DNA of 35,472 nucleotides from Synergistaceae bacterium (GTDB lineage Bacteria; Synergistota; Synergistia; Synergistales; Synergistaceae): positions 1 through 35,472 of the forward strand of contig JAITOL010000151.1 of assembly GCA_031289955.1 (NCBI GenBank), in the 5' to 3' direction. Below are positions 2,160-29,997 of this stretch, piece by piece. Made by a program: the position numbers and the translations under genes. Below the pieces are notes generated by a model. That model had not been told where the DNA came from. It ran no database searches and saw only the letters and a program-made list of their open reading frames with translations. Numbering within the stretch: the first letter of the stretch is position 1; each line of letters opens with the position of its first letter.

Positions 2160-2243
2160 GTTATTATTTTGCTGGTTATTATCGATTTGTTATGACATGG
2201 TTATTTTACGTTGCGCACAGAGAATATCGGAGGGAAAATTAGT

Positions 2244-3176
2244 TTGAAGGCTACCGCGACGACCACAGGGGTCAACATACGGAAAATATCGCCTGACGAG
2301 TTTTACGAAATATATGGTGATGTAAACCGCAGGGCTCTTTACTACATCAGGAACATAGGTAAGGATGGGTTCGTCTTATCTTCTTTCGATGAATACGATC
2401 CTATGGGCTATCTCATTTGCAGAGCGGATCGCAGCGCAAACAGACTCTTAGCGCAAATTGTAAACGTGCTGGATAAATATCGTTTATGCGGGACATGCTC
2501 CCGGTTACTCAGCGAGGCGGAGACAATTTGCGGCGAAATACGCTTGGAAGCTGTAAAGATCTGCGTTGCTGGAAACGATCCAGGGTGTGGCTTTATAAGC
2601 GATTTTTTGATAAGAAAAGAGTACGCGATAACGGACAAAGTGCGGATATTCCGTTGTGGTGAACAGGACTACCGAGGTTGGGATGAATATATGGCGCGCA
2701 CTGGCGGCAGGCTCATTCGGTGGCTGGAGGAGGATGGTTTCAGCGCCGTGACGTTCGAAAATGCCAAAGACGCGGTAATGACGGAACTTCGCGAGTCTGC
2801 CTCGAATGAATTCGGGAACAATCTTGAAATATCGCCCTTTCTTGATGGCGAGGGCTGCAACATTTTGAGGTCTGTAAGTTCGGTCGCGCTGAAGGAAGAA
2901 CATCCGGTCGCGTATTGCCTCGTTACCGGCCCCGATGTCGTGAGCGCGGTATTCGAGCAAATATCTGTAGCGAAGGCGTACAAGAACACAGGCGTTTTAC
3001 TGCTGACTATAGCCGAATCGATGCGGCGCTTCAAGGAATTTGGATACAGGAGGGCCGCGTATGCTATTTACGACAGCAACACCTCCGCGCTCGCCTTCGC
3101 GAGAAAAATTTTATACAGGATGACAAGCGTCGAAAAAATACAGCTCAATTTCGAAAAAAAAATAGGCAGAATATAA
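2244..3176 (+). CDS. Tandem-GNAT N-acyltransferase, likely precursor-peptide lipidation enzyme
   Basis: Predicted cytoplasmic acyltransferase of 310 residues. The TTG at 2244 is chosen because GGAGGG (2229-2234) sits 9 bases upstream; the only earlier candidate (TTG at 2211) has no such site. Two GNAT-like halves can be seen: a diverged one (about residues 15-145, ending in a FLIRKEY strand) and a better conserved C-terminal one (about 215-295). The latter has the acyl-donor-binding strand-loop-helix region around AKAYKNTGVLLL and the terminal DSNTSALAFARKILY helix. It directly precedes the ACP gene, so acyl-ACP is the probable donor and a Nif11 precursor the probable acceptor. GNAT-type enzymes acylate RiPP peptides in the goadvionin and selidamide pathways (known); the role here is inferred. 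A different GNAT substrate or self-immunity by acetylation are alternatives. Confidence 0.75.
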   Translation: MKATATTTGVNIRKISPDEFYEIYGDVNRRALYYIRNIGKDGFVLSSFDEYDPMGYLICRADRSANRLLAQIVNVLDKYRLCGTCSRLLSEAETICGEIRLEAVKICVAGNDPGCGFISDFLIRKEYAITDKVRIFRCGEQDYRGWDEYMARTGGRLIRWLEEDGFSAVTFENAKDAVMTELRESASNEFGNNLEISPFLDGEGCNILRSVSSVALKEEHPVAYCLVTGPDVVSAVFEQISVAKAYKNTGVLLLTIAESMRRFKEFGYRRAAYAIYDSNTSALAFARKILYRMTSVEKIQLNFEKKIGRI

Positions 3177-3221: not shown

Positions 3222-3509
3222 ATGGCTGATCTTTCCGGCCTCGAAGGGAAAATAGCTCGGAAGATAGTAGAAAGGCTTGAATTGACCGATATGGACGCGG
3301 ATTCGATATCTGAGGACGCTTCGCTCTTTGAATCCGTGAAGGGAGAGGGCGAAAATATAGGTCTCGATTCCGTTGACGGGCTCGAACTTGTTGTTCTGAT
3401 CTATGAGGAGTGGGGTATAAAGGTGAACGCGAACGACATGCCAAACCTCACGACCATAAGGCGCATAGCTGATTATATCAGGAAATGCTCCGGAGACGCC
3501 AATAAATGA
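3222..3509 (+). CDS. Acyl carrier protein dedicated to the cluster
   Basis: Small acidic four-helix carrier of 95 residues that holds the growing acyl chain on a phosphopantetheine arm. The attachment Ser is in GLDSVDGLEL (about residue 51), the usual DSxxxxEL context; the loop before it is longer than in primary-metabolism AcpP. The C-terminal helix ends with TTIRRIADYI, a common ACP ending. The ATG at 3222 is preferred over the GTG at 3219; GAGGG (3204-3208) and GGTG (3211-3214) lie upstream. Its stop overlaps the start of the ketosynthase gene (ATGA), which indicates translational coupling. No phosphopantetheinyl transferase gene lies in the window, so activation must rely on the host enzyme. 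Confidence 0.88.
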   Translation: MADLSGLEGKIARKIVERLELTDMDADSISEDASLFESVKGEGENIGLDSVDGLELVVLIYEEWGIKVNANDMPNLTTIRRIADYIRKCSGDANK

Positions 3510-4708
3510 ACCGAGCCGCTAAAAGGACTGCTATAACTGGGATTGGGGTTGTCGCTTCCAATGGGCGAGGGCGGGACGTTTTTTTTAAAAGCTGTTCGGA
3601 AGGCTTGACCGGGTTTGTAGAGTGTAAACTTTTTTCTACGGAAAAACTCTCGACCAGGCAATTCGGCGAAATCAGCGGCGATTTTCCGCCCGCCTCCGCC
3701 TCGCCGACCTGCGATACCAGGTTGAAGTCGCTTGCCCGAGAAGCCCTCGCGGAAGCGATGAGCGACGGTGGCCTCAACAGAGCGCAAATAGCGGCGCTGG
3801 GAACGAGGGCATGGCTGTGCTTCGGAACGCTACTGGCCACAACGGATCCCATAATGGAATACGCGACGGCGAAAAAATCGGGGAAAACCCTCCCTGGATA
3901 TCTGGAGAATATCAACGACTATTTGCCCCATCTCCGCGATCTGTGCGGCGTAAAGGGCGCATCCTTCGTGAGTTCGGCTGCCTGTGCCGCCAGTACGATG
4001 GCGGCCGGAATGGCATACGACTTCATCGGAAATGGGATGTGCGATCTTTGTGTCGTTGGCGGCGCCGATCCCCTGACCAAGATGGCAGCCTACGGATTTC
4101 ACTCCCTTAAATTGCTGAGCGGAGGCTTGTGCAATCCATTCGACGAGAACCGCGACGGAATAAACATAGGGGAAGGTGCGGCATTTTTTATCTTCGAGGA
4201 GTACGAGGCCGCATTGTCGCGCGGCGCGCGCATATACGCCGAAGTTATGGGCTATGGGCTCGCGAACGACGCGTATCACGTGACAAGCCCCGATCCTGAG
4301 GGACTCGGCGTGATACACGCTATGAAGGAATCTCTGCGCGAAGCCGGACTCGTCGCTGGGGATGTGTCCCACGTGAACGCTCACGGCACAGGAACGCCAA
4401 TAAACGATCAGATGGAACTCCAGGCCATTGAAAAATTGTACGGCGACGCAAAAAAACCAAGCATAACTTCGACGAAGGCGCTCATCGGTCACTGCATGGG
4501 GGCATCCGGAGCTATTGAGCTTGCCGCCCTCGTCATGGCAGTGAAAAACCAGGCGTATATGCCGCTGCCGAACCTCGAACGCCCGATAGAGACTGATTGT
4601 TTCATCGACTCAGTCGCGTGCCCCTATGAGATTAATTATGGCGTTTCTAATTCATACGCTTTCGCCGGCAATATCGCGAGTGTCCTCGTGGGGAGATCTG
4701 AGAGATGA
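3506..4708 (+). CDS. Beta-ketoacyl-ACP synthase (FabF-like, catalytically complete)
   Basis: Condensing enzyme of 400 residues that extends an acyl chain with malonyl-ACP by decarboxylative Claisen condensation. The complete Cys-His-His triad is visible: Cys160 in SSAACAAS, His293 in NAHGTGT and His329 in ALIGHCMGASGA, at positions close to those of FabF. The thiolase fold opens with TAITGIGVVASNG. It is coupled by ATGA overlaps to the ACP gene upstream and the dehydratase gene downstream. The next condensing-type protein in the operon lacks the triad, so this is probably the active half of a KS/KS-like heterodimer, as in type II polyketide and aryl polyene systems. A simple FabF homodimer is the alternative. 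Confidence 0.9.
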   Translation: MNRAAKRTAITGIGVVASNGRGRDVFFKSCSEGLTGFVECKLFSTEKLSTRQFGEISGDFPPASASPTCDTRLKSLAREALAEAMSDGGLNRAQIAALGTRAWLCFGTLLATTDPIMEYATAKKSGKTLPGYLENINDYLPHLRDLCGVKGASFVSSAACAASTMAAGMAYDFIGNGMCDLCVVGGADPLTKMAAYGFHSLKLLSGGLCNPFDENRDGINIGEGAAFFIFEEYEAALSRGARIYAEVMGYGLANDAYHVTSPDPEGLGVIHAMKESLREAGLVAGDVSHVNAHGTGTPINDQMELQAIEKLYGDAKKPSITSTKALIGHCMGASGAIELAALVMAVKNQAYMPLPNLERPIETDCFIDSVACPYEINYGVSNSYAFAGNIASVLVGRSER

Positions 4709-5148
4709 CTGGCCCGATCAACAGGGACGGAGTCATGAAGGCGCTTCCGCACAGAGGCGCGATGCTGATGATAGATTGCGTGACAGAGCTTGAATATGGG
4801 CGTATGGCGATTGGATACAAGGATATTGGGGAGAGGGAGTTTTGGTGCGACGGCCACTTCCCCGGCGAGCCGATATTTCCCGGAGTGCTAGTGATAGAGA
4901 TTATGGCTCAAATATCGGCCATGGCATTTTACAGGGAGGACGAGCCCGCAACAAAACTATACCTGGCCAAGGTCGACAGCGTCAAATTTTTGTCGAAGGT
5001 GACGCCGAACTGCCGTCTTTTCGCCGAGGCTGCATTGGATGTTGAAGGCGCCGGATTTTTCAGGCTGAAGTGCAGAGCGTTCATGGAAGGTAAGGACGTA
5101 GCGGTCGGAACGCTGACGTGCTATATCAGACGAGATAACAAAGAATGA
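4705..5148 (+). CDS. 3-hydroxyacyl-ACP dehydratase (FabZ-like hot-dog fold)
   Basis: Dehydratase of 147 residues that removes water from 3-hydroxyacyl-ACP to give a trans-2-enoyl chain. The catalytic His51 lies in GHFPGEPIFPGV and the catalytic Glu65 in VLVIEIMAQ, with the 14-residue spacing and Glu typical of FabZ rather than FabA, whose equivalent is Asp. The early LPHRGAMLMID block is also typical. The start overlaps the KS stop and its own stop overlaps the next start (ATGA both times). No enoyl reductase is encoded nearby, so if the set acts iteratively the double bonds may remain. Confidence 0.9.
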   Translation: MTGPINRDGVMKALPHRGAMLMIDCVTELEYGRMAIGYKDIGEREFWCDGHFPGEPIFPGVLVIEIMAQISAMAFYREDEPATKLYLAKVDSVKFLSKVTPNCRLFAEAALDVEGAGFFRLKCRAFMEGKDVAVGTLTCYIRRDNKE

Positions 5149-6215
5149 TCGATTTCAAGACAGCGATAAACGGAATAGGAATGATAAGTGCGGCCGGGAC
5201 GGATGTTAAATTCTTGAGCAAACGTTTGAACGGCGATGGCCTCGGTTGGCGCGTCACGAAACAATCGCGTGAGACAGTGTTTGATGCTGGCGTTCCAGCA
5301 CAAAAACTGAGAAGAGTGAATCGCTACTCCAGACTTGCGGTTGCGGCTGCCGTTCAGTCGTTGCGCGATGCTGGAGAATCGGGCAGAACCGCCGATCCAT
5401 TTCGCGGCGGAACCATCTTCACTACGGGATATGGTTCGATGTCGTCTAACGTAGCCTTCTGCCTGTCCGTGGCCGAGGGGGAACCGGATCTGTGCGGCCC
5501 GTCTCTTTTCTCTGGCACAGTCGCGAACGCCTGCGTCGGCCAGGTCTGCATCCAATTGAACATGAAGGGGCCGAGCACCGTTTTGATAGGAGGCAATATT
5601 TTCCTTTACTCGAAGTTACTCCTGGAAATGGACAGGGCGGATGTCATCTTCGCCGGCGCGGTCGAGGAGTACGATGCGGATTTATTCGCGTCTCTCGAAA
5701 AAAATGAGATCGCCTCAGGCGTATGCATCAATGAAGCTACGGTCGTATTCGCGCTCGGGCAAAGGAATGAAGCTTCGCGCTGCCTGGTCGGTGAAAGTTC
5801 GGTCTCAGCTCTCAGCGGATACCCCCTCGTAAAGAGGCTTAGTGACGAGGAGTCGGAAATGAGTATGAGACTGGCGTTGCGGGAATGTCTTGATAAAAAC
5901 GGCGGCGCCGATGTCGTTTTGTCCTCCGCGAACGGATCGTATTTCGACGAGATTGAAGCCCGCGCCATCGCGGTTGAAGCGCCATATGCAGAGGTCGCGC
6001 ACGGCGTGAAGGGATTTTTCGGAGAGACTATGGGGGCGGCGTTTTCCATGAACGTTGCGGCAGGTGCGCTCTGTTTGACGGATCGCTGTTTCGCGGAGGG
6101 GCTTGGCGTGTCGCGCGCTCCGGATAAAATTCTGGCAGCAGGATACGACCCGATAGGAAACTATAATTGTATCGTTTTGTCTAAGAACGGACGGGGTGAC
6201 GATGGGACTGCTTGA
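5145..6215 (+). CDS. Ketosynthase-like protein without catalytic triad (chain-length-factor-like)
   Basis: Thiolase-fold protein of 356 residues, about 45 shorter than the active KS. It keeps landmarks of the fold: AINGIGMISAAGT at the start, GTIFTTGYGSM in the first half, and KGFFGETMGAA near the end. The nucleophile position is occupied by Asn (about residue 151 in LIGGNIF), the first His motif reads SSANGS, and the second His is Glu in FFGETMGA. It therefore cannot condense on its own. Clustered next to an active KS, ACP, KR and DH, it is best read as the non-catalytic partner that shapes chain length, as chain-length factors do in type II PKS. A decarboxylase role is less likely without any triad residue. 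A degenerating duplicate is an alternative, but the frame is intact and coupled on both sides. Confidence 0.78.
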   Translation: MIDFKTAINGIGMISAAGTDVKFLSKRLNGDGLGWRVTKQSRETVFDAGVPAQKLRRVNRYSRLAVAAAVQSLRDAGESGRTADPFRGGTIFTTGYGSMSSNVAFCLSVAEGEPDLCGPSLFSGTVANACVGQVCIQLNMKGPSTVLIGGNIFLYSKLLLEMDRADVIFAGAVEEYDADLFASLEKNEIASGVCINEATVVFALGQRNEASRCLVGESSVSALSGYPLVKRLSDEESEMSMRLALRECLDKNGGADVVLSSANGSYFDEIEARAIAVEAPYAEVAHGVKGFFGETMGAAFSMNVAAGALCLTDRCFAEGLGVSRAPDKILAAGYDPIGNYNCIVLSKNGRGDDGTA

Positions 6216-6939
6216 AGGGAAGAGGGCCATAATCACCGGAGGTTCAAGGGGGATAGGCCTCGCATGTGTCAAGTCCTTTTTGGCGGAAGGGGCAAGCGTT
6301 GCCGCCACTTACAATTCAGCGGAGGGAGGACTACTGGAGCTTGTGGAAGGCGAGTACAGCGAACGCGTGTCGGTTCACAGGCTCGATATACGCGACAAAA
6401 GCGCAGTCGAAAGAATATCATCCGAGATGACCGAACTTCTGGGCGGTCTGGACATCCTCGTGAACAACGCCGGCGTGAGCCGCCCATCTCTTTTCATGAC
6501 AATTACGGACGAGCAGTGGGATGAAGTTTTACAAACGAACATATGCGGCGCGTATCTAATGCTGAAACAACTGCTATTCCCCATGATGTCCAAGAAAAGG
6601 GGTTCTGTGATAAACGTGGCTTCTGTGAATGGCCTTCGGGCTAATCCAGGGCAGGCAGCTTACTCCGCGTCGAAAGCCGCTCTGATAAGCCTGACTCAAA
6701 CGCTTTCGAGGGAACTAGCCGGCAGAGGGATTCGATTCAACGCTGTGGCGCCTGGGTATGTAGAGACGGATATGACGTCGGCAATTCCGGCGAAACAGCG
6801 CGAGGAATTCATAAAACAGATTCCGATGAAGCGCTTTGGACTTGTAGCCGAAGTAGCTGATGCAGTGACGTTCCTCGCGAGCGACAGGGCGAGTTATATA
6901 ACCGGACAGACGCTCATCGTGGATGGCGGCCTGTGCTGA
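6202..6939 (+). CDS. 3-oxoacyl-ACP reductase (FabG-like short-chain dehydrogenase)
   Basis: NAD(P)H-dependent ketoreductase of 245 residues that turns the 3-ketoacyl product of the KS into a 3-hydroxyacyl-ACP. The classical SDR set is complete: TGGSRGIG (residues 12-19) for cofactor binding, NNAG (88-91), Ser141 and Tyr154-x3-Lys158 in AYSASKAA for catalysis, and the FabG ending TGQTLIVDGG. The start at 6202 overlaps the previous gene by 14 bases; a GTG at 6196 is an alternative. The stop lies 20 bases before the second precursor gene, which shows that the acyl-chain genes and peptide genes form one operon. Confidence 0.92.
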   Translation: MGLLEGKRAIITGGSRGIGLACVKSFLAEGASVAATYNSAEGGLLELVEGEYSERVSVHRLDIRDKSAVERISSEMTELLGGLDILVNNAGVSRPSLFMTITDEQWDEVLQTNICGAYLMLKQLLFPMMSKKRGSVINVASVNGLRANPGQAAYSASKAALISLTQTLSRELAGRGIRFNAVAPGYVETDMTSAIPAKQREEFIKQIPMKRFGLVAEVADAVTFLASDRASYITGQTLIVDGGLC

Positions 6940-6959: not shown

Positions 6960-7295
6960 ATGAGCAAGTTTGTGGATTTCTACAACAAAATAAATTTGAA
7001 CGACGCTCTAAGAACAGAGTTCACCAGAGTGATGAAAGAGCGAGGGGTGCCCGAGGGTACGTCGTTCGAGGATCTGGATGAGGGTACTCTGGCGGCGCTC
7101 GAACCGGTGGCAAACCGCGCCGGCATCAGCTTTAAGCTGAGCGAGGCGCTCGCGTACTTCTCAAAAAAAGAAGGGGGCGAGCTGTCGGATTTCGAACTCG
7201 AGGCTGTGGCCGGAGGGGCCAAGTGTGTACCGGATAAGGTTGAGTATACATGGGTGGATTCGACTGGCAGCTATACTGGAGGCAAAACGTCATAA
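6960..7295 (+). CDS. Nif11-class RiPP precursor peptide 2
   Basis: Precursor of 111 residues with an 86-residue leader opening MSKFVDFYNKINL and ending FELEAVAGG. The 25-residue core begins AKC and contains two Lys near the start, one Cys, a Tyr and a Trp, then a Ser/Thr/Gly-rich end. AAGGAGGG (6947-6954) precedes the ATG closely. Its stop codon shares a base with the next ATG (TAATG at 7293-7297). Leader and position mark it as a paralogue of precursor 1 that arose by duplication with core divergence. It is the only one of the four with Ala rather than Lys at core position 1; its Lys is at position 2. Confidence 0.9.
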   Translation: MSKFVDFYNKINLNDALRTEFTRVMKERGVPEGTSFEDLDEGTLAALEPVANRAGISFKLSEALAYFSKKEGGELSDFELEAVAGGAKCVPDKVEYTWVDSTGSYTGGKTS

Positions 7296-7645
7296 TGAAT
7301 AAGTTCTTAAACTTCAGGGACAAGCTTACGTCAGACGGCAAATTGGCGGCGGAGTACGGCGAGATTATAAGGCGTCGAGGAATAGCTAAAGGAACGAATT
7401 TCTCGGATCTCGACGATTCGACGATAAGCGAAATCATTCAGGCGGCGGTTCGGGCCGGTTTCGATTTCACTATCGAGGAAGTCAGAAAATACTTTGCGAG
7501 TGATTCCCAGGACGAACTTTCGGATGCCGAGCTCGAGAGTGTGGCGGGAGGAAAAGGAGGATCAAAGACAACTTTGACCATCGACTTATACTATAACGAA
7601 AAGGGTGAATTTGTGGATGAATGGACAACGTCCAAAAAGAGCTGA
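7295..7645 (+). CDS. Nif11-class RiPP precursor peptide 3
   Basis: Precursor of 116 residues. The start at 7295 is chosen over an in-frame ATG at 7250 because GGAGG (7278-7282) lies 12 bases upstream and because it yields a leader of exactly 86 residues, the same as the other three. The leader opens MNKFLNFRDK, is the most diverged of the set, and ends AELESVAGG. The 30-residue core begins KGGSK, has two adjacent Tyr, acidic residues and a Trp, and finishes with two Lys and Ser. It contains no Cys, so thioether chemistry cannot be a requirement common to all four cores. Confidence 0.88.
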   Translation: MNKFLNFRDKLTSDGKLAAEYGEIIRRRGIAKGTNFSDLDDSTISEIIQAAVRAGFDFTIEEVRKYFASDSQDELSDAELESVAGGKGGSKTTLTIDLYYNEKGEFVDEWTTSKKS

Positions 7646-7671
7646 GAGGGCTAAAAAAAGGAGCTGACAAC

Positions 7672-8013
7672 ATGAGCAAGTATATCGATTTTTATAACAA
7701 AATTAGCGCCGACGCGAATTTCACTGCTGAATACAAGAAAATCATGGAGGAAAAAAGAATTCCTTCCGGAATGCCATTTTCGGCGCTTCCTATCGACACG
7801 CTGAAGGCGTTGATTCCTCTCGCGACGAGTGCTGGGTTTGATTTTACGCTCGAGGAGTTGCAAGCCCGTTTTTCAAAGAAATCCGCTGACGATTTGTCGG
7901 ATGATGAACTCGAAGCTGTGGCTGGAGGCAAGGGCAAAGTTCCCGATAATGTCATTATAGTCGCTCATGCTTGGGATGCCCCCGACAATCCGCACAATCC
8001 GGCGAATATTTGA
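7672..8013 (+). CDS. Nif11-class RiPP precursor peptide 4
   Basis: Precursor of 113 residues; AAGGAG (7658-7663) lies 8 bases before the ATG at 7672. The 86-residue leader opens MSKYIDFYNK and ends DELEAVAGG. The 27-residue core begins KGKVPDN, has a hydrophobic centre with His and Trp, and a Pro/Asn-rich tail (DNPHNPANI). It lacks Cys, Ser and Thr, so lanthionine-type chemistry is impossible on this core. It lies just upstream of the radical SAM gene, which follows after a 23-base gap. Confidence 0.9.
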   Translation: MSKYIDFYNKISADANFTAEYKKIMEEKRIPSGMPFSALPIDTLKALIPLATSAGFDFTLEELQARFSKKSADDLSDDELEAVAGGKGKVPDNVIIVAHAWDAPDNPHNPANI

Positions 8014-8036
8014 CCCTATCCTGCTACTACCACAAG

Positions 8037-9410
8037 ATGAAGCGATTTCGCCTTGGAAAGAATTTCGCATTGAGGGGGTGGGACAGGCTGCCTTATGCGG
8101 TCGTCGATTTGAGGAACGGTGAGGCCGTTTTTTTGACGCGAGGCCAATTTCAGCCCCTCTATGACCTTCTTTTAAACGGTGTCTCGCATGAGGAAGAATC
8201 CCTGGAGGTATATGACGACTTAGTTAGCATGGGCGTAAATCGCGGTTTTCTGGAGGAGCACCGCACGGGGACATCCTTGGCGGCATATCAGGAGTACAAA
8301 AGGGCTGACTGCCGCTATATAAAAAGTGTACAGTGGTCGATAACGGACGGATGCAACCTGAAGTGCCGCCATTGCTATGTCAACGCCTCGGATGCGAAGC
8401 GAGTTCAACCCTCCATCCAAGACTGCCTGGGCATAATCGATCAGTTTGAGCGCGCAAACGTGGCAGCGGTGTCGCTCACCGGTGGAGAACCACTCATTCG
8501 GGCTGACTTTTGGGATATCGTCGATGCTCTTTTAGAAAAAAGGATAGCGGTGACGGAGCTTTTCACGAACGCCCTCTTAATAGATGAGCATTTTCTGGAC
8601 GAATGCTCGAAAAGGTCTCTATCGTGGGTTTTCTATGTCAGCTTCGATGGAGTGGGATATCACGACTGGTTGAGGGGGAAGGCCGGAGTCGAGTCGAGGG
8701 TCGTGGATGCGATAAAACAGATAAAGGCAGCAGGATTTTACGTTGCTGTGAACACGACTCTTCACGGGGATAACGTTGTTTCCCTCCGCCAAACTTACGA
8801 GTTCTTGAAAGAACTCGGCATTGACGCGTGGAAAGCGTGCACTGTGATGAACTCGGGCCGCTGGGCTGGAGAGACGGATAAGCGTGAAATTTGCGTTTCC
8901 GACCTCTATAATTCATTCCTTGACATAATAGGCGAGTACCGTCGCGATGGTATGCCGATGACTCTCTCGCTTGGTGGTTTTTTCACCTGTGCGAGAGATA
9001 GCGGCGATTGGAGCTCGTCATATCATAAGCGCTCGGGGACAGAGAGAGCTCTAAATCTACCGGTCTGTGGAGCGTGTAGGACGCATATTTATCTCGCGCC
9101 GGGCGGAGAAGTCCTGCCCTGCATCCCTACGGTCGGAACCAGTCTGGAGGACGATGCTCCCAATATAATGAACACGCCGCTTACTGAGATATTGAGCGAT
9201 TCGGAATTTTTTGAGCTCATTGATACACGACTCGGCGCATCGTTCGAAAAAAACCCGATTTGCGGCAATTGTGAGTTCCGCCTCAAATGCGGTCCATGCA
9301 GAGCCGCAGCTCTGCATGAAACAGGCAGCTTCAATGGATCGGACAAATTGGCCTGTGCCTATTGGCATGGGGGCTATCCAGAAAAAATAAAGCAAGTTTT
9401 TGAAGCGTGA
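8037..9410 (+). CDS. Radical SAM/SPASM RiPP maturase with N-terminal recognition-like region
   Basis: Radical enzyme of 457 residues, likely acting on the Nif11 cores. The [4Fe-4S]-SAM motif CNLKCRHC has Cys106, Cys110 and Cys113 (CxxxCxxC), followed by LTGGEP (147-152). The C-terminal SPASM region holds Cys344, 347 and 362, then Cys409-x2-Cys412-x5-Cys418-x2-Cys421 and Cys440, enough for two auxiliary clusters. Residues 1-90 (VVDLRNGEAVFLT onward) look like a PqqD/RRE-type winged-helix leader-binding domain. No good ribosome binding site precedes 8037; coupling to precursor 4 or an earlier in-frame start (TTG 8010, ATG 7971) are options. Known activities of the family include C-C and C-S crosslinks, epimerisation and peptide excision; which applies here cannot be told from sequence alone. 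Confidence 0.88.
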   Translation: MKRFRLGKNFALRGWDRLPYAVVDLRNGEAVFLTRGQFQPLYDLLLNGVSHEEESLEVYDDLVSMGVNRGFLEEHRTGTSLAAYQEYKRADCRYIKSVQWSITDGCNLKCRHCYVNASDAKRVQPSIQDCLGIIDQFERANVAAVSLTGGEPLIRADFWDIVDALLEKRIAVTELFTNALLIDEHFLDECSKRSLSWVFYVSFDGVGYHDWLRGKAGVESRVVDAIKQIKAAGFYVAVNTTLHGDNVVSLRQTYEFLKELGIDAWKACTVMNSGRWAGETDKREICVSDLYNSFLDIIGEYRRDGMPMTLSLGGFFTCARDSGDWSSSYHKRSGTERALNLPVCGACRTHIYLAPGGEVLPCIPTVGTSLEDDAPNIMNTPLTEILSDSEFFELIDTRLGASFEKNPICGNCEFRLKCGPCRAAALHETGSFNGSDKLACAYWHGGYPEKIKQVFEA

Positions 9411-9463
9411 CCCTTTATTCCAAAACTGGAATGCACAAATTAGAATTAGGCCTGTTTCCCGCG

Positions 9464-9482
9464 CAATTAATGGAGTTAATTG
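9464..9482. terminator. Weak candidate terminator between the convergent operons
   Basis: CAATTAA and TTAATTG form a perfect 7-bp AT-only stem around a 5-base loop in the 128-base gap between the rSAM gene and the convergent MFS-fusion gene. A second small hairpin, TTCCA/TGGAA, lies near 9419. Neither has a proper T-run, so efficient termination is doubtful and transcripts of the two operons may overlap. Confidence 0.3.
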
Positions 9483-9538
9483 TTGATTATTGCTGGATTT
9501 ATGAGTTGTTCAGCAGACACTGAATAGTGCCTGACTCT

Positions 9539-12500
9539 TCAAGCCTTTTGTCTTGTCTGCCCCCAGCAAAAGATTGAGAAGGTCAGCGCTATCGAGGCTA
9601 TCAATATGCTGAACGCCGCTATGATGTTTTGGGCGTTCAGCAGTATGCCGAAAACCAACGGTCCCCCAGCGTATCCAAGGCTTTCGATAAAGTTGTAGAT
9701 CACCATCTCTGTTCCTGCGCCAGCGCTCTTCGTCGCCGACATCTCGGTAAAGTAGAGAGGGAAACAAGTGCCTCCCGCGCTGTTGGAACAACCCATTATA
9801 AATACTGCGACCAGCATCGCGCCTGTTGACTGTAAAATAGCGAAGCAGAGAACGGCGGCAAGTCCGGATAGAACCGGGACGAGAAGGCGTGCCAAGTTGC
9901 TTGGGTTCGCATCTTTCACAATTGATGCAAGTTTGGGACCGAACATCGCCCCAACGCCGTAAAGGACGAAAACAAGGCTTATCTCAGACTCGGAGAGTCC
10001 ATTTCCGTCTCCGAAAATAGGGACCAAGTAATACAGAAAACCGCTCAAAATCGAATATGGGAAGAGCAGCAAGAATAAAAATCCCAGAATGGCAAGAGGC
10101 GAGCGACGAACGAAGGCGATTTTGCTTGAAGGATGAGCACTTGGCACATGCCGTTCTTCGGCGTCGCTTGTTCCCCGTTTTTCTTTTTTAGTGATAAACA
10201 TGAAAGCGGCCAGTGCTAGCAACCACAAAAACGATCCCATGTAATAAACGGCGCTCTGATTAAAATATACCGCGACAGCTCCTCCAACCATGATGCCGCA
10301 GTTAATTCCGGTAAAACTGGCGACCGTAAACATCGAGAACCCGACCGCCCTATCATCCGGATGTTTCAGAGACGCTACGTAAACATGTATGACAGTGAAT
10401 AAAAAACCGGCACACAAACCAGTAGCGCTCATTCCCCAAAAAAGCGTATAAATGGACGTGGCGCTTGCGTTCATCGCCTCCCCCAATACTCCGAACAGTG
10501 CGCCAATTACGAAAGACCGCTTTATTCCAATCCAGACGATCAGTTTAGCGCACAGGAGTGGCCCTACGGCGAGCATGACATGACCAGCGGTCAGCGGCAA
10601 AACAGACGAAAACTCATAAGACAGGTTCCAGAGTGATCCGCCCATTGTTGCCGCATAATTTGGGGCAAAACCAGATGATAAATTAAAAATGAGGAAAATG
10701 GCAAATGTAATCGGACTGATGCAGGAGACCGGCAAGAACAATCCTCTTCTTCTCTCATCGGCTATAGGATCTTTCAAACTCGTTAAAGGCAGAGATTCGA
10801 GTATCTCAGATAGCAGAAAGAGCATGATCGAGATGATCAACAGAGTCCTGACTATCATTGTTCTGAATTGCCGATATATCATTTCCTCGAAGGGACCCAA
10901 TTCGACTCCCATCTCCAGAATGCCAATAACCTCATTTCCTCTCTTGTCAAAGATTGGGCCGGTCAAGGATATGTAAGTTCCACTCACATCCTGTTGACCT
11001 ATATTTGTAATCCAAGCTCCATCTTTCGATATTTTGTGTGCGTCTGACCCTTCAAACTTGTCAGGAAGGGAAAACGCTCCTATCGACCCATCCAAAAAAG
11101 CTGTCACATACAGAATATCGTCCTGAAATTTATAGGCGACGCAGTACTTGTTTTCGTTCCACTCGTATTCTCTGTCAACGAGATTATTTAGAGACTGTGT
11201 GAATTTTTGGTATGCGGGGCTGTCATAGTCCTGAGGGGTTTTGATTGCGGCAAATGATTCGGAATCCAGGATTTTAGGCGATACCTGCATCATATATGAT
11301 AAACGATTCAAAGTTTCGCTTCTCATGTCAGATCGCAGCGCCCCGAGAATACTAGGCGTAATTGAGAAAAATACGAGGGAGGTGACGAGTATGATTACAA
11401 AACCAAACCATTCTTTTTGAGATAATTTTCTAATATAGAGATAGGAAAACGCTATTTTAAGGACTATGAGGGTCGATACTATGAAAATCACAAAAACGAC
11501 TGTCAACGCGGTTCTAAATGCTACGATGGCGTCTCCGACCGGCAGAGTGGAAATGTTAAATTTCTCAATCCCATCCGCCATGTCGGCGATTACTACTGAT
11601 TCAAGGCTGGTCAGCGTCAGCAAGCCTCGCGCCGCATATACCGAATTGTAAACCACCGGCCATAGAGAATCGATGTCACCCCAGCCGCCCATTACCTTCC
11701 TTGCTTGCCCTGCGTCATCAACGCAAAGGACAGCTCGTTTGCCGATATCGGTAAAGTAAAGACTGGCGCCGTCGCAGGAAATCTGAAACGGCAGTGAAAA
11801 TTCGCTTGCTCTATTGCCTGAAACTGGAACAAAAATAGCATGTACATCATCCGACGTCGAGTGGAATATATTCCCGGACTTGTCAGTATAGTAGATGCTT
11901 CTTTTTACAGGGTCTATTGAAAAATCAAAAATCTTTTTGATGGCATCATTATATTTGCCAACGTATTCTATCATTGATTCAGGAGTTTCGCCTTTGCGAG
12001 CAATTTTATCAACCTTCACCGCCAAACTTATTACGATATAGGAGTTTATTGTTTTTTTAACGAACCATATCTTTTCGTCGCTGTAAATCAACCCGTCCAA
12101 TGCCTGCATGGATGACAAACCCGGCGCTAATTCTTCGTCTTTAGTCCGATCGGCAACGTATAAGACTCTTCCGGCAACGCCGTTTTTCTTGCTGAACTCC
12201 AAAATCCTTTCAGCTTCCATCTTCATCCCTGTTGCATCCCAGATCACGTCGTGAACGTAGAAATAATCCTCATTCTCAACCGAGATATCACACACGCTGA
12301 AAAACGGCGTATCGTTACCTCCACCTTCAATTATATAGTCAGCGTAGCCTTGGGCACTTCTTTTGATGATACGTGCCCTGCCATTGTCAACAACATAGGT
12401 ATCTCCAAAGGAGTCTGTTTTTGCTGTAAAAATATTGGAGAAAACGACCTCACTATAAGGATTCCAAGACAGCGAGCCGGAATAGTTGTATATAGTCGCA

Positions 12501-12544
12501 AAAGACGCTAGCAAAACAGCAAGAATGATAAGAGCTTTCTTCAT
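9539..12544 (-). CDS. Periplasmic sensor (propeller-like plus Cache-like) fused to an MFS transporter
   Basis: Inner-membrane protein of about 1001 residues. The ATG at 12544 has GAGG 8 bases upstream. Visible order: N-terminal membrane anchor (about 3-20); a large extracytoplasmic region (30-335) of repeated beta-strand units such as SIYYTDKSGNIF and SLYFTDIGKRAVL, resembling NHL/beta-propeller blades; two membrane segments (345-372, 380-402); a second extracytoplasmic domain (403-560) resembling a Cache/CHASE sensor, ending GILEMGVELG; another membrane helix (563-585); then a roughly 12-helix MFS-like domain (605-1000). Ordinary MFS proteins have about 400-450 residues. It is the last gene of the export operon, so it may sense or export the product, give self-resistance, or act as a receptor. 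Function is inferred only from architecture and position. Confidence 0.72.
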   Translation of the reverse strand: MKKALIILAVLLASFATIYNYSGSLSWNPYSEVVFSNIFTAKTDSFGDTYVVDNGRARIIKRSAQGYADYIIEGGGNDTPFFSVCDISVENEDYFYVHDVIWDATGMKMEAERILEFSKKNGVAGRVLYVADRTKDEELAPGLSSMQALDGLIYSDEKIWFVKKTINSYIVISLAVKVDKIARKGETPESMIEYVGKYNDAIKKIFDFSIDPVKRSIYYTDKSGNIFHSTSDDVHAIFVPVSGNRASEFSLPFQISCDGASLYFTDIGKRAVLCVDDAGQARKVMGGWGDIDSLWPVVYNSVYAARGLLTLTSLESVVIADMADGIEKFNISTLPVGDAIVAFRTALTVVFVIFIVSTLIVLKIAFSYLYIRKLSQKEWFGFVIILVTSLVFFSITPSILGALRSDMRSETLNRLSYMMQVSPKILDSESFAAIKTPQDYDSPAYQKFTQSLNNLVDREYEWNENKYCVAYKFQDDILYVTAFLDGSIGAFSLPDKFEGSDAHKISKDGAWITNIGQQDVSGTYISLTGPIFDKRGNEVIGILEMGVELGPFEEMIYRQFRTMIVRTLLIISIMLFLLSEILESLPLTSLKDPIADERRRGLFLPVSCISPITFAIFLIFNLSSGFAPNYAATMGGSLWNLSYEFSSVLPLTAGHVMLAVGPLLCAKLIVWIGIKRSFVIGALFGVLGEAMNASATSIYTLFWGMSATGLCAGFLFTVIHVYVASLKHPDDRAVGFSMFTVASFTGINCGIMVGGAVAVYFNQSAVYYMGSFLWLLALAAFMFITKKEKRGTSDAEERHVPSAHPSSKIAFVRRSPLAILGFLFLLLFPYSILSGFLYYLVPIFGDGNGLSESEISLVFVLYGVGAMFGPKLASIVKDANPSNLARLLVPVLSGLAAVLCFAILQSTGAMLVAVFIMGCSNSAGGTCFPLYFTEMSATKSAGAGTEMVIYNFIESLGYAGGPLVFGILLNAQNIIAAFSILIASIALTFSIFCWGQTRQKA

Positions 12545-12649
12545 CTCTGTCACCTCTTCATCGATGGAACTTGATTTTTCTCCTTCTCAAGCAAGGGTTC
12601 GTACTCCATATCTCGATGTTAGCGATAAAACTAATCTTTAGTTTGCTTA

Positions 12650-14026
12650 TTATATATACTCCTTGTTTTCCCGCATAGAGTTAAAAATAGTAGCAGTCCC
12701 GCTCTTGCCGAGCTTCTCCGGGTATAGAACGCCATGAAGGGATAATGACGTTCCATGTGCCTGAGAGCACTTGCGAAGAGAATCGGCCTCGTCCATAGAA
12801 TCCACCTGGAGGACATTTCCGATTCCCCACAGATAAAGAGGGAGCGCCGGGTAGAAAATATAATCCGTCACGGACTCGATATTTTCCGGCTGGTTGCTAA
12901 TCGCCTTGATACTCCGCCCCGAGGTGAAGCGCGAGTAAAAAGGCGCACGTGCCCTGTAAAAGAGTTCCAGAACCTCTTTGTCCCTGTCGTGAACAACGGC
13001 TAGTTTCGGTGGTTTGAATAAGTCAGCGAGTTCGCATATCACATCGCGATAGATATCCGATATTTTATGCAATTCTCCCATAAATGACTCGATCACTCGG
13101 CGGCGCAATTTTCCATCCAACCTCTCCGTAATAGCATCGAGATATTTTTTGTATGACATGTCGGGAAGTGGTATTATGACTGGAGCGTTGAGCGCGGCGG
13201 CAAATTCAAATGGTAGGCGAATAGATTCATACTCCTGAAGCGTCATGCGCGTTTTTCTGTTCTCAAAGCTTATATCCTCAATATATCGGCTGTATTCTCG
13301 GATGTGCGCGCCCATATCCGCCTTTCCATTCGAACGGTTGTAATATTTTCCCGTATTGTAATCGAAGCTGAAAACTCTGCCGTCATTGTGGCGCACGAGA
13401 ACCAACATCTCGTCTGTTCCAAAAAGGCAAGGACCGCCTATGACCGCTATTTTCTCTCCACGTTTGTTTATTTTTTCGGAAAGTTCCCCAAAGTTTCTGG
13501 TAAAGAGCGGGACGGTCTCGATTCTGCCTGAGATCGAACCTATCTCAGGCAATAGCCGTTTCATGTTCGAAAACGTGTTACAGAGAACGGTGCCTTTATA
13601 TATAAGGCCTTTCATAGCGCAATCCTCAGCGGAAGCCTTCAGTTTTTCCAGCTCATTCGAGATGTTGTTTTTTTCGCCTCGCAACTCTCGTATGGCAGCC
13701 ATTACCGACATTCCCTCCTCGGTCAATTCGCTGCTGACAAAGAGTTTTTCCCGCTTGCTATACTCGCGAAGCTCCTGTAGCTCGTTGACTATTTTTACAA
13801 GTTTTGACGATAGATATTCATCGCTTTGGTTGTGTTGAGGGCTCTGTTCGGGTTTTTCAAAATTTTTCGAGAGGGCGAAATCATTTTTGTATTTTTCTAT
13901 GTCGGCCACCTCGAAAAAATTCCCAGCCTCGAAAGGCTTGTTCAGAATATCTTCATAGTTCAAGTATGGCGTTTCCTGTACATCGATTCCTTGTTCAAAA
14001 AGGATTTGCGCTATGGTAACAAGCAT
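12650..14026 (-). CDS. Unrecognised protein in the export operon
   Basis: I do not recognise this 458-residue soluble protein. No signal peptide or membrane helix is evident. Residues about 60-150 are rich in Glu, Lys and Leu and could form a coiled coil. The middle has a Gly-rich stretch IAVIGGPCLFGTDEM followed by a beta-rich section with paired Asp-Gly turns (HNDGRVFSFDYNTGK), and the end has CSQAHGTSLSLHGVLYP with a Cys and two His. It overlaps the preceding metalloprotein gene by 16 bases, which implies coupling and a joint function. It could be a cytoplasmic maturation or export accessory factor. No strong ribosome binding site precedes the ATG. Confidence 0.7.
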   Translation of the reverse strand: MLVTIAQILFEQGIDVQETPYLNYEDILNKPFEAGNFFEVADIEKYKNDFALSKNFEKPEQSPQHNQSDEYLSSKLVKIVNELQELREYSKREKLFVSSELTEEGMSVMAAIRELRGEKNNISNELEKLKASAEDCAMKGLIYKGTVLCNTFSNMKRLLPEIGSISGRIETVPLFTRNFGELSEKINKRGEKIAVIGGPCLFGTDEMLVLVRHNDGRVFSFDYNTGKYYNRSNGKADMGAHIREYSRYIEDISFENRKTRMTLQEYESIRLPFEFAAALNAPVIIPLPDMSYKKYLDAITERLDGKLRRRVIESFMGELHKISDIYRDVICELADLFKPPKLAVVHDRDKEVLELFYRARAPFYSRFTSGRSIKAISNQPENIESVTDYIFYPALPLYLWGIGNVLQVDSMDEADSLRKCSQAHGTSLSLHGVLYPEKLGKSGTATIFNSMRENKEYI

Positions 14027-14871
14027 TTTGCTTTAGTCATCTCCATGTTTTTAATTCCGCGTATTCCAGCCGACGCTAGTTTTATCACCAGATCCGGCTC
14101 GTTTTCGATGTCCCTCATCTCGCTGTTATTGTCCAGATACGTCTCAAGGGCATCAAGCGCCTCATTCAAATGCCGGCACACAATCGGAACCGCCTCAAAC
14201 GGAAGTTTTTTTACGTAGAACATCAAGCGTCCGCCGTCCTTTATGAATTGGCCGTCGTCGGATAGTCCAAAAAATTTTCTCTGAAGCGAAGCGCTGAAAC
14301 TCCCTAGCGCAGCGAGCTGCCCGATGCAATCTGCCACTATTTCATCGAGGATATGGTTTTTCATTCCTCCAAGGGCTCTCAATGTAAAGTAATGGCAACA
14401 TTCGTGGCGCAGACGGATCACGGCTGATTTTTCAACCCAGTCATCCTCAGGAATGCCTGCGTCATTTCCAGAGAGGGCGCTGTAGCCCGACTTGTTCAGC
14501 AAAATGACCCGGTGTCCGCTCATTTCGGGAAGTTTAACAGGCACTGTGAAAGCGTTCACCGATAAAGGGAGGTTGAAGGCGCTGGCCTTCACAGTAAAAA
14601 TCGCGTAGAGACGCTCGAACGATGACCGTTCGGAAACGTATGCCACAGGTATCCTGCCGGCTGCTGTTTTCTCGATCCAGCAACTCACCTTATCGGTTTT
14701 TAATATTTCTGTGATAGCGCCTGGAAAATCGAAGCGACCCTGGAGCCATCTCTCCCACTCATCGATGAAATCCTCGTCGGGAAGGGGGAATATCAAGTTC
14801 TTCGGAATTTCGTAGCAATGTTCCAGATATTGGAGAGCAGCTTCTGAAGCTGAAGAATCAGGCAATTTCAT
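14011..14871 (-). CDS. Putative zinc metalloprotease-like protein (HExxH...ExxxD)
   Basis: Protein of 286 residues with HECCH at 156-160 and, 16 residues on, EIVAD at 177-181. This HExxH plus ExxxD layout resembles the gluzincin zinc site of thermolysin-like peptidases, in which the two His and the second Glu bind zinc and the first Glu is the base. No signal peptide is seen, so it should act in the cytoplasm. The start is uncertain: an AGGGAGG at 14874-14880 is only 2 bases from the ATG at 14871, better spaced for a TTG at 14865, and an upstream ATG at 14919 would overlap the ABC gene. It lies between the exporter and an unknown protein, so precursor trimming or leader degradation is plausible, though a non-peptidase role remains possible. 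Confidence 0.65.
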   Translation of the reverse strand: MKLPDSSASEAALQYLEHCYEIPKNLIFPLPDEDFIDEWERWLQGRFDFPGAITEILKTDKVSCWIEKTAAGRIPVAYVSERSSFERLYAIFTVKASAFNLPLSVNAFTVPVKLPEMSGHRVILLNKSGYSALSGNDAGIPEDDWVEKSAVIRLRHECCHYFTLRALGGMKNHILDEIVADCIGQLAALGSFSASLQRKFFGLSDDGQFIKDGGRLMFYVKKLPFEAVPIVCRHLNEALDALETYLDNNSEMRDIENEPDLVIKLASAGIRGIKNMEMTKAKCLLP

Positions 14872-14878
14872 AACCTCC

Positions 14879-17578
14879 CTACGCCAATTGTCTTCTTGCC
14901 AGCTTAGCGAAGAGGCCATCCATCTTCATGAGGGTGTTGAAATCCCCTTCCTCGGCTATTTTGCCTTCGTTAAATACCAGTATCCGGTCCGCGTTCCTGA
15001 TGGTGCTCAAGCGATGCGCGACTATCAGCCTCGTTGCGCTCATTTTGTCCATGCTCTCGGTGACGATGGATTGAGTCGTGTTGTCGAGTGCGCTTGTGGC
15101 CTCGTCCAACACGACGATCTTTGGTCTGTTAGCGATGCTGCGCGCGATCAATATTCTCTGCCGCTGTCCTCCTGAGATGTTGCCCGCTCCCTCGCTGATA
15201 ACGGTGTGCATTCCCATCGGCATATTCGAGATATCCTTGTCGAGACCTACCATCCTTGCGGCTTCCCAAGCGTCATCCAGCGTGAGGGGAGAGGAACCCA
15301 CTATGTTATTGAAAATATCGCCGGCGAAGAGCTGTCCGTTTTGCAGGACGACACCCATCTGAGACCTCACAGAAGTAACGTTGAGCGTCGAAAAATCCTG
15401 ACCGTCGTAATAAATTGCACCTTGAGAAGGTTTCTCGAACCCTAAGAGTATGCGGAGCAACGTCGATTTCCCACAGCCGGACGGGCCTACGAGGGCAATA
15501 GATTCACCGGCCTTGACATGAAATGATATGCCGTCGAGAACCATGGGGGAATCAGGAGCGTAACTGAAGTGTAGGTTCTTCACCTCTATTGCTCCCGAGA
15601 GAACCCCAACGTCCATCTTATCGTCGGTCACTTCCGGTTCGGCTTCGAGAATTGGTTTTATGTTTTCGACGTAGGGTTTCACGTTAAATATACCAGCGAC
15701 AACCGGTATAAATGCGACAAGCGTGGCATTGAACCCGGCGAAAGCGGTTTGAAAACCCATGAACTTCGCATAGTCGAGCGCTGGCAGAGCTCCTTCGGGA
15801 GTCTCCAACACAAGCGCTACCGCTACATAATAAAAAATCATGGTCATGATTATCGGCTGAATCGAGTTAAACAGGGACGTATAGTTGGTATACCAACGAA
15901 TCTTGAGATTCCATTTCCATTCCTCACCGAACGCCTTGGACCACATATTGAAGGCCGCGGGCTCGCCTCCCTGGAGCCTGAATTTCGAAAGCCCGTTCAG
16001 AACCTGAAGTGTTCTTGCGGAGGAAAGGTTGGACGCCTCGACATGTTTGCCGCGAAAGGCCATCATTTTCTTATACAAAAACCCGGATATGAGGATGTAC
16101 ACTATCCAAGCCGCCGTAGCCATAACGGTAAGCCTGACACTGTAATACATCATCAGGAGGAGACTCCAGAAGGAGAAAATGGTGTTGAATATCGCCGAAA
16201 GCGTGACCTCTCCGAACAATTCGGTAATGGCGGCCACTCCCTGCATCCTATTGACAAGATCGCCGGCCTCGTACTTTCTGAAAAAACTTGCCGGCAGACT
16301 CAGCAGTCTCGACCACAGGGCTGATTCCAGTGATGTCCTGACATGGTTTTTTATACGCAAAAAGGCGACGCTCCTCGCGAAAGAGAGTATCGCGGTGGTA
16401 AAACCGGAGACGAGCATTACCTGAGCTACAGTCCCAAGAGCCTGGCGATCATTGATGGGTATTATATCCTTGAACACGCTCTCCGTTATCAAAGGCAGAA
16501 CCAGAGCCAATGCGCCGATGAGAAAGCTCATCACCAACACTGTCCAAAAGTCATTTTTCCAGCAATTTCTCAAGGAGAAGCTCACCATGTCCGAAACGTC
16601 GATTTTTTTGGCGGGCAACCCAGGATAGCAGAGAAACGCGTCGCTCTTTATTTTTTTCGCAACCTCCATGTCGACTCGTATCCCGAGCGGATGTTCGGTC
16701 GAATGCAGGAGATATCTTTTAGTACCGTCCGGAATCAACGCGACTATATCACTGGATTCTCCGAAATATCCCAGGATAACCCCCGCATCGCTTTTATGCC
16801 AATTTTGAGAGAGGCTGACGAGGCGCACCTGCATATTGCCCTTTCTTACCAGCCGCCTCATTCTGTCGACAGGATCAAGCTTTGCCGCTATATCGGGAGG
16901 TAGCGATATATTTTCCAAAGCCATGCCGAGGTGACGGGCCGCCATTCTTACCGCGAACAGCGTAGCATCGTCCGCATTGGATGACTCTTCGGCAGCTTCA
17001 ATCGATTTGAATTCCGTTCTAAGAAGGTTGCCCATTGCGGAAAACAGCGTTTTTTCGTTTTGCTTGGAGCGTTTTTCCCTCTTGATCTCTATATTGTTCT
17101 CAAGCGATTTCAAATGGTTCGCTATTACGCTCCGGAGTATCTCCAAATGTTCGTCGAGCGCGCCTTGTACACTCTTCATAGCGCCGCCCACATTAGTGAA
17201 TATGCTTCCGCCGTCCCATTTCGCCAGAACTTCCTCGTCCGTAACCGCGAGCTCTTTTACCCACGACAGATCCGCTAATTTTTTGAACCAACTGGAGGCA
17301 GACGATGACAAGTTTCTCGCGTCATCGAGAGAAGATGGTTCTATCAGGGAATCCTGAACCGCGAACGCTTGAAATTCAAACCTCGCCTCACTATCCGTTG
17401 GCAAAAAAACGTCTCCGGGCGCAAGTTCGGCGAGAAAAACCTTTTGATAATTGCCTCGTCCCTCAGGCGTACAAACGTATATCTCTACGCTCCCGCTTTG
17501 GAGCGTAAAAACGACTCCGTCCTCGCGTCCGATTTTCAAATATTGACTCCTCTTCAGGCTGATAACTGATGTTCCCAT
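14879..17578 (-). CDS. NHLM-type bacteriocin ABC transporter, second subunit (permease-ATPase, no peptidase)
   Basis: Export ATPase of 899 residues, larger than a usual 600-700 residue half-transporter because of a long N-terminal region of some 330 residues. Residues 1-85 resemble a cyclic-nucleotide-binding-like beta roll, as is typical of the NHLM_ABC2 family, followed by a charged helical section. Six membrane helices span about 340-640. The ATPase carries Walker A GPSGCGKST, signature ISGGQRQRI and Walker B IVVLDEATSALD. Its start lies only one base after the stop of the C39-containing subunit, so the two are probably heterodimeric partners in product secretion. Confidence 0.9.
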   Translation of the reverse strand: MGTSVISLKRSQYLKIGREDGVVFTLQSGSVEIYVCTPEGRGNYQKVFLAELAPGDVFLPTDSEARFEFQAFAVQDSLIEPSSLDDARNLSSSASSWFKKLADLSWVKELAVTDEEVLAKWDGGSIFTNVGGAMKSVQGALDEHLEILRSVIANHLKSLENNIEIKREKRSKQNEKTLFSAMGNLLRTEFKSIEAAEESSNADDATLFAVRMAARHLGMALENISLPPDIAAKLDPVDRMRRLVRKGNMQVRLVSLSQNWHKSDAGVILGYFGESSDIVALIPDGTKRYLLHSTEHPLGIRVDMEVAKKIKSDAFLCYPGLPAKKIDVSDMVSFSLRNCWKNDFWTVLVMSFLIGALALVLPLITESVFKDIIPINDRQALGTVAQVMLVSGFTTAILSFARSVAFLRIKNHVRTSLESALWSRLLSLPASFFRKYEAGDLVNRMQGVAAITELFGEVTLSAIFNTIFSFWSLLLMMYYSVRLTVMATAAWIVYILISGFLYKKMMAFRGKHVEASNLSSARTLQVLNGLSKFRLQGGEPAAFNMWSKAFGEEWKWNLKIRWYTNYTSLFNSIQPIIMTMIFYYVAVALVLETPEGALPALDYAKFMGFQTAFAGFNATLVAFIPVVAGIFNVKPYVENIKPILEAEPEVTDDKMDVGVLSGAIEVKNLHFSYAPDSPMVLDGISFHVKAGESIALVGPSGCGKSTLLRILLGFEKPSQGAIYYDGQDFSTLNVTSVRSQMGVVLQNGQLFAGDIFNNIVGSSPLTLDDAWEAARMVGLDKDISNMPMGMHTVISEGAGNISGGQRQRILIARSIANRPKIVVLDEATSALDNTTQSIVTESMDKMSATRLIVAHRLSTIRNADRILVFNEGKIAEEGDFNTLMKMDGLFAKLARRQLA

Positions 17579-25072: not shown

Positions 25073-25073
25073 G

Positions 25074-25985: not shown

Positions 25986-25989
25986 GCTC

Positions 25990-26988: not shown

Positions 26989-27002
26989 GGGGCGACGCAG
27001 CT

Positions 27003-27968: not shown

Positions 27969-28054
27969 GGCCGCATAGATCCGGAAAACTTCGCCCGCGT
28001 GACGCGCGCGTAGAGATAGATACAAAGACACCATATAAAATAGGAGGAATGGAA

Positions 28055-29677: not shown

Positions 29678-29687
29678 TTGCGCGACA

Positions 29688-29729: not shown

Positions 29730-29760
29730 CGCCTCGAATAACCTGGGTTTACAGAGGAAA

Positions 29761-29958: not shown

Positions 29959-29997
29959 CCCGCTTACAAAAACACCGAATATCGAGGCCGTTTTTTT

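Follow-up and report, generated by a model that had tools for sequence, protein, structure and literature searches.

A propeller-Cache-MFS fusion beside a peptide export cluster of a Synergistaceae bacterium is a candidate transporter-derived receptor

Membrane receptors with a transporter-like body are already known, among them CbrA and UhpC, a glucose-6-phosphate receptor that acts on the histidine kinase UhpB (PMC8871633). Cache proteins carry known signalling outputs, which Upadhyay et al. 2016 surveyed as chemoreceptors, kinases, cyclases, phosphatases, transcription factors and ion channels (PMC4822843). The word 'transporter' is absent from the main text of that survey, which could not have revealed a Cache-transporter fusion because proteins with known outputs were its starting point (PMC4822843). 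Here we describe a gene that encodes a beta-propeller, a Cache-like domain and a major facilitator superfamily (MFS) transporter domain in one chain. It lies in a stretch of 35,472 nucleotides from a Synergistaceae bacterium (assembly GCA_031289955.1, contig JAITOL010000151.1), hereafter the window. Literature searches, with subscription journals mostly outside their coverage, found no paper on this architecture or its setting. We lean, by a little, towards the view that the fusion is a transporter-derived membrane receptor, or a transceptor still able to move solute. Its probable role would be to signal to the cell when a machine for making and exporting a peptide, or a similar machine, should run.

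The gene forms a single uninterrupted frame at 9539-12553 on the minus strand, with 1004 codons counted from a GTG. The ATG at 12544, which has an AGAGG-type ribosome site in front, is the likelier start and would give a gene at 9539-12544 and a protein of 1001 amino acids. A preliminary description had read it as an MFS transporter joined in one gene to two large extracytoplasmic sensor-like domains, in the order propeller, membrane helices, Cache and MFS. The intact frame, Pfam, the AlphaFold model and the charge pattern agree with that reading, and structure prediction and profile search bear out the order. The joining of separate genes by an assembly or frame error, which it had named as the refuting case, was excluded because full-length homologues exist in independent genomes. 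Beyond the window, Synergistia and Bacillota carry the same fusion at another 28 loci. The parts of the gene are as follows.

9539-12553, minus strand: NHL-like propeller, Cache and MFS fusion gene (open frame, Pfam, AlphaFold model)
12485-12550, minus strand: N-terminal membrane anchor helix, residues 2-23 (model, hydropathy)
11534-12475, minus strand: six-bladed NHL-like beta-propeller, extracytoplasmic, residues 27-340 (model, PDB profile matches, charge)
11432-11533, minus strand: transmembrane helix, residues 341-374 (model, hydropathy)
11339-11419, minus strand: transmembrane helix running into the Cache-like domain, residues 379-405 (model, hydropathy)
10901-11338, minus strand: Cache-like sensor domain, extracytoplasmic, residues 406-551 (model, weak chemoreceptor and CitA matches, sub-cut-off sCache_3_2 match of homologue L071)
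10793-10900, minus strand: transmembrane helix bearing E583, residues 552-587 (model, alignment)
9545-10729, minus strand: 12-helix MFS domain, residues 609-1003 (Pfam, model, structure alignment, conservation)

In the AlphaFold model, built on an alignment of 21 homologues (mean pLDDT 80.6, pTM 0.61), the chain of about 1000 residues runs from an anchor helix through a six-bladed propeller, two helices, a Cache-like domain and one further helix to a 12-helix MFS domain. The propeller consists of 24 strands in six four-stranded blades (residues 43-334). A profile built from residues 1-600 of 18 homologues matched NHL propellers in the PDB, among them PknD (2e-11) and the designed Pizza proteins (to 6e-24). 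We call the propeller NHL-like because the Pfam NHL repeat model found no match in the window protein at E up to 0.1. The same profile matched Cache domains weakly (a chemoreceptor at 0.0095 and CitA at 0.025). The window protein had no Cache match in Pfam, and homologue L071 reached 25.8 bits against the cut-off of 28.4 for sCache_3_2. In 18 of 18 homologues the 368-384 loop is positively charged and the propeller and the Cache domain are negatively charged, which therefore places both domains outside the cytoplasm. E583 is invariant in the same number of aligned homologues.

MFS_1 was the sole Pfam family above cut-off in the fusion (residues 616-965, E 2e-20, 73.4 bits against a cut-off of 33.4). 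By structure alignment the MFS part is close to the vesicular transporter VAChT (9wji, Z 35.5, root-mean-square deviation (rmsd) 3.7 over 371 residues) and to NorA (9b3o, Z 34.1, rmsd 3.1 over 353 residues). The membrane-embedded N624 and N751 and an acidic residue at 957 (E957 in the window) are kept in most homologues. Such a full and conserved MFS fold favours the main rival explanation, a ligand-gated transporter, in which the propeller and Cache would gate the MFS domain, opening or closing it in response to the exported peptide or to a metabolite, for export, re-import or detoxification of the cluster's product, that is, for immunity or re-uptake. We consider this unlikely, though well ahead of the other alternatives weighed below.

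The N-terminal half of the fusion also occurs on other outputs. In two genomes, at L122 (7252-10134) and L123 (6894-9683), a propeller, transmembrane helix and Cache domain are followed by HAMP and a class-III cyclase in place of the MFS domain, and in L124 (7169-10571) the propeller-Cache module stands alone next to a GGDEF gene. Of 13 PP2C proteins from these loci, 10 have an input with distant kinship to the Cache domain of the fusion, in a database of 13 sequences and at lenient E-values. Given its presence on cyclases and this kinship with PP2C inputs, we regard the N-terminal half as a signal input module, and its reuse on other outputs thus puts the MFS domain in the output position. 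MORN and DUF4280 genes lie near the L122 cyclase fusion.

Neighbouring genes were compared at 29 loci, 20 from Synergistia (window included) and nine from Bacillota, with the fusion fragments L017 and L060 counted in. The comparison left aside L059, L061 and L062 (Cache-only matches or a short contig), L122-L126 (no propeller-Cache-MFS fusion) and repeats or weak partial matches (L001-L010, L018-L047, L063-L070, L076, L077, L081-L117, L147). Picking open reading frames by length had hidden genes under longer antisense frames (L013, L014, L049, L054, L073, L074, L118), and neighbours were instead counted from tblastn searches, whose query proteins had known Pfam identities, with one exception, the LPG_synthase_C gene at L120. 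A missing neighbour says little at L012, L013, L052, L072 and other loci on short contigs.

Signalling genes were the commonest neighbours. A SpoIIE-type PP2C phosphatase (Cache-HAMP-SpoIIE), an RsbW-like HATPase_c_2 protein or a STAS protein adjoins the fusion at 14 of the 29 loci in two phyla (L013, L014, L017, L049, L052, L054, L060, L071, L073, L074, L075, L118, L119, L121). A hybrid histidine kinase with a small conserved protein of 187 residues was found at L016 and L055, the only two of the 29 with such a kinase as neighbour. At seven loci the neighbour is a protein that we call P458. In Holdemanella (L074) the genes for the exporter proteins ABC1 and ABC2, STAS, HATPase, LPG_synthase_C, the fusion and PP2C stand in a row, and their content matches that of L014 from Synergistia. 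L071 and L073 lie near contractile-injection-type genes (DUF4280, Pvc16_N/AAA).

The preliminary description had offered three functions, a transporter gated by an external ligand, a self-immunity or re-uptake device, and a receptor built on an MFS scaffold. The last is best supported, because homologues adjoin phosphatase, anti-sigma and STAS genes or histidine kinase genes and because cyclases share the input module. It had also asked whether homologues always lie beside NHLM exporters. An exporter of this type was found at 9 of 29 loci (window, L011, L014, L049, L050, L054, L060, L074, L120); the association is real but not constant, and a constant exporter neighbourhood is thereby ruled out. 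Among 180 genomes of the window genome's class, NHLM ABC2 was above cut-off in 24 overall and in 9 of the 17 with the fusion (hypergeometric p 3.7e-5, kinship ignored). Proximity and co-occurrence would both suit a gated transporter. However, 20 of the 29 loci are not beside an NHLM exporter in the stretch seen, exporter clusters without the fusion exist (L144, L145, L146), and the window cluster already holds a complete ABC exporter with HlyD and TolC parts. The neighbours of the relatives, the P458 loci and the cyclase fusions lead us to prefer a receptor (or transceptor) to a gated exporter or an immunity pump. Two of the fusion-less exporter clusters, L144 (genome G003) and L145 (G021), adjoin PP2C/STAS or STAS/HATPase genes.

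P458 lies directly upstream of the fusion in all seven loci of the window's clade (window, L011, L012, L048, L050, L051, L056). In a midpoint-rooted tree of 30 full-length fusion proteins, where L120, L056, L121 and L015b form long branches and three rows fall in no group, the seven P458-linked rows were grouped with support 98/99. Partner-type labels on the tree required three changes, the possible minimum, against a shuffled mean of 13.3. P458 occurs in 10 of the 180 class genomes and adjoins the fusion in seven cases from six genomes. Without the fusion it stands in the gene order STAS-HATPase-P458-PP2C in G168 and G022; in G075 it adjoins STAS, and a PP2C gene lies close by. The tenth genome, G097, has a partial gene at a contig end. 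P458 is therefore tied both to the fusion and to fusion-less partner-switching sets, of which L139, L140 and L141 contain it.

P458 is predicted to have a fold resembling that of class-Ic aminoacyl-tRNA synthetases. Its model, of middling quality (mean pLDDT 61), contains much helix, and all 50 structure matches listed belonged to the tryptophanyl- and tyrosyl-tRNA synthetase (TrpRS/TyrRS) class; sequence profiles give this no support. The best alignment with TrpRS had Z 12.7 and rmsd 3.7 over 202 residues, at that pLDDT, and Foldseek E was no better than 0.09. Pfam found no family in P458 at E up to 0.1 and chance-level matches only when relaxed. We rejected the possibility that P458 is a cyclodipeptide synthase (CDPS), which had been prompted by a Foldseek match to 9j61 (E 0.13) and a local 'DYIFYPALPFYLW' stretch and had no profile support. 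The Pfam CDPS family had no match among seven P458 members at E up to 10, and comparison with the one cyclodipeptide synthase used, from L127, gave an hhalign probability of 0.4%. A search for the CDPS family gave one case in 41 relatives, and in the class of G180, searched without a positive control, it gave 0 of 196 genomes.

An LPG_synthase_C-type gene, resembling aminoacyl-tRNA-dependent transferases, recurs beside the fusion. It was found at 14 of 29 loci (L013, L014, L017, L052, L054, L071-L075, L118, L119, L121 and L120), with Pfam giving the identity for two of the genes. L072, on a short contig, has this gene only, and L120 has it with the exporter only. These genes raise a second alternative, a split aminoacyl-lipid system, in which the LPG_synthase_C protein or P458 would use aminoacyl-tRNA to make an aminoacylated lipid or peptide, and a sensor-controlled MFS domain would flip the product across the membrane. 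MprF joins synthase and flippase. The replacement of LPG_synthase_C by P458 in the window's clade, with its predicted synthetase-like fold, would fit. Against it stand the low pLDDT of the P458 model, an empty profile comparison with the one cyclodipeptide synthase, chance-level Pfam matches and the lack of HIGH and KMSKS, motifs of aminoacyl-tRNA synthetases, in the conserved columns of P458 as judged by eye. LPG_synthase_C has a GNAT-like fold, which may serve other functions. We regard this system as improbable.

The fusion was found across two phyla. In the window genome's class, 31 of 180 genomes matched the N-terminal profile at E 0.001; 17 of them (best E at or below 1e-17) were counted as fusion holders and the other 14 gave weaker partial matches. 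A scan of named genomes yielded 18 loci, with the full architecture in metagenome-assembled genomes of Synergistaceae, in Lachnospiraceae, in Lachnoclostridium and in Holdemanella. Among 291 genomes from the class of G180 (Lachnoclostridium), 61 matched at E 0.001, and the fusions followed up from these were in G180, G273, G290, G207 and G243, while G211, G386 and G435 were inspected and were not fusions. In the phylum of G181 (Holdemanella), 1 of 392 genomes matched at E 1e-20, namely G181 itself. Plasmid records had no match to the N-terminal part of the L075 homologue. Three Burkholderiales from the named-genome scan (L078, L079, L080; about 710 residues) likewise have a sensor-like part ahead of an MFS domain, but they lack the propeller and their similarity to the window protein is limited to the MFS part. 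A HAMP-like stretch lies between sensor and MFS, below cut-off and scanned in L078 only. Each of the three genes is preceded by another, shorter membrane protein gene, and the phylum of the Burkholderiales genome G186 gave 0 of 398 at E 1e-20 in a search without a positive control.

Direct tandem arrays with no signalling partner nearby were found at L057 (three fusion genes, 7773-16722) and L015 (two, 9614-15491). They show that copies can spread alone, as they might if sensor domains had been captured by an ordinary MFS gene and the fusion were functionless and maintained by drift. Yet the architecture is preserved at 13-24% identity to the window protein in two phyla, and at least 80% conservation was seen in 27 of 395 MFS columns and 12 of 146 Cache columns. 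A functionless fusion is thus disfavoured, and we think it very improbable.

For the receptor or transceptor, the following steps are proposed. Extracytoplasmic ligands would bind to the outward propeller and Cache and so shift the MFS domain into another state, in the way that substrate acts on UhpC. Either this domain or the cytoplasmic linker by the E583 helix would then act on a cytoplasmic or membrane partner encoded alongside; the association is seen in gene order, and the contact we infer. At about half of the loci this partner would be the Cache-HAMP-SpoIIE phosphatase, working on STAS and the RsbW-like kinase; elsewhere it may be the hybrid histidine kinase (two loci) or, in the window's clade, P458. 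In the window, synthesis or export of a probably lipidated Nif11-type peptide may be tied in this way to its presence outside or to the state of the envelope. Somewhat more tentatively, with the chances a little short of even, such fusions may form an undescribed signalling class in which an outward propeller-Cache module drives an MFS-fold receptor. Its interchangeable circuits would be the phosphatase/anti-sigma/STAS set, the hybrid histidine kinase or the synthetase-like P458, and in two phyla it would govern secretion machines such as the NHLM exporters of peptides and the contractile injection systems of some Bacillota.

Several observations weigh against this interpretation. No signalling partner was seen near the fusion at four of the 29 loci (L015, L053, L057, L058), and by tblastn the window has no PP2C, RsbW-like or STAS gene. 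The window genome (G000) carries a SpoIIE-type PP2C fragment and a HATPase_c_2 gene on another contig. Two clade-A genomes, G008 and G166, have weak HATPase_c_2 matches only (best 7.8e-8 and 1.3e-7), so P458-type receptors may do without partner switching. The MFS domain is conserved as much as the Cache domain and keeps its polar membrane residues, which is expected of a working transporter too. Moreover, gene order is association and no proof, and the contigs of several loci are short.

UhpC has the MFS fold and, to our knowledge, neither propeller nor Cache. The partners of the fusion differ in being mostly the SpoIIE phosphatase set or P458. The likeness would lie in a transporter-like receptor that addresses a separate signalling protein, whereas CbrA and CrbS resemble the fusion in having a transporter domain, SLC5, built into a signalling protein (PMC8871633). 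Theirs, however, is another transporter fold, in a single chain with the kinase, and neither a propeller nor a Cache domain faces outwards. The SpoIIE phosphatase, STAS or HATPase_c_2 genes at the 14 loci resemble RsbU-RsbV-RsbW partner switching, but this gene set is absent from the window, and an MFS-bearing input is unusual. With kinase-, cyclase- and phosphatase-type Cache receptors the fusion shares an input of a Cache-like domain between transmembrane helices, as the propeller-Cache on HAMP-cyclases also illustrates; it differs in holding an MFS domain in the output position.

The window locus is a Nif11-leader/NHLM-exporter cluster for a ribosomally synthesized and post-translationally modified peptide (RiPP), with lipid-building genes. 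TIGR03796, TIGR03797 and TIGR03798, for NHLM ABC1, ABC2 and Nif11-type leader precursors, were all above cut-off. Around the fusion we found the following genes.

1572-1898 and 6960-7295: two further Nif11-type precursors (by similarity)
2211-3176, plus strand: GNAT acyltransferase, candidate lipid-attaching enzyme
3506-6939, plus strand: FabF-like, FabZ-like, second ketoacyl-synthase (KS)-like and FabG-like genes (starts 3506, 4705, 5145, 6196)
7250-7645 and 7621-8013, plus strand: two Nif11-leader precursor genes (TIGR03798 above cut-off)
7971-9410, plus strand: radical SAM/SPASM maturase, convergent with the fusion gene (Pfam, NCBIfam)
12650-14026, minus strand: P458, adjoining the fusion upstream (no Pfam family at E up to 0.1, synthetase-like model)
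14011-14919, minus strand: DUF7005 protein of the NHLM cluster (Pfam)
14879-17578, minus strand: NHLM exporter ABC2 (TIGR03797 above cut-off)
17580-19763, minus strand: NHLM exporter ABC1 with C39 peptidase (TIGR03796 above cut-off, Pfam)
19765-20721 and 20718-21893, minus strand: two HlyD-type adaptor genes (Pfam)
21890-23251, minus strand: OEP/TolC-type outer-membrane channel (Pfam)

The FabF-like and FabA/FabZ-like calls came from profiles, the ketoacyl-synthase call was weak, and FabG was called from reading the translation. The 'lipopeptide operon' of the preliminary description is plausible, given the Nif11 leaders, the radical SAM enzyme, the GNAT and the FabF/FabZ/FabG-type genes. Lipidated RiPP clusters of the selidamide type, for example that of phaeornamide, comprise leader-peptide precursors, a GNAT acyltransferase and exporter genes, all of which the window has too (PMC9505594). 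It differs in its Nif11 leaders, radical SAM enzyme, dedicated FabF/FabZ/FabG-type genes and fusion. The four related precursors of the cluster differ in their cores. The DUF7005 protein has an HExxH stretch (RHECCH, by eye) and may be a RiPP-cluster metallopeptidase. Adjoining the cluster, the stretch 24140-33271 encodes a peptide-type ABC transporter with its SBP_bac_5 protein, and also a hybrid histidine kinase that bears Cache and PAS domains.

For proteins of such length and layout, the label 'MFS transporter' alone should be avoided. If the proposal is true, MFS-fold receptors would join partner-switching control, and whether transporter-like receptors still transport would become a question with defined partners. 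It would also offer a testable account of what turns on the RiPP exporters, and perhaps the contractile injection systems, in Synergistia and Bacillota.

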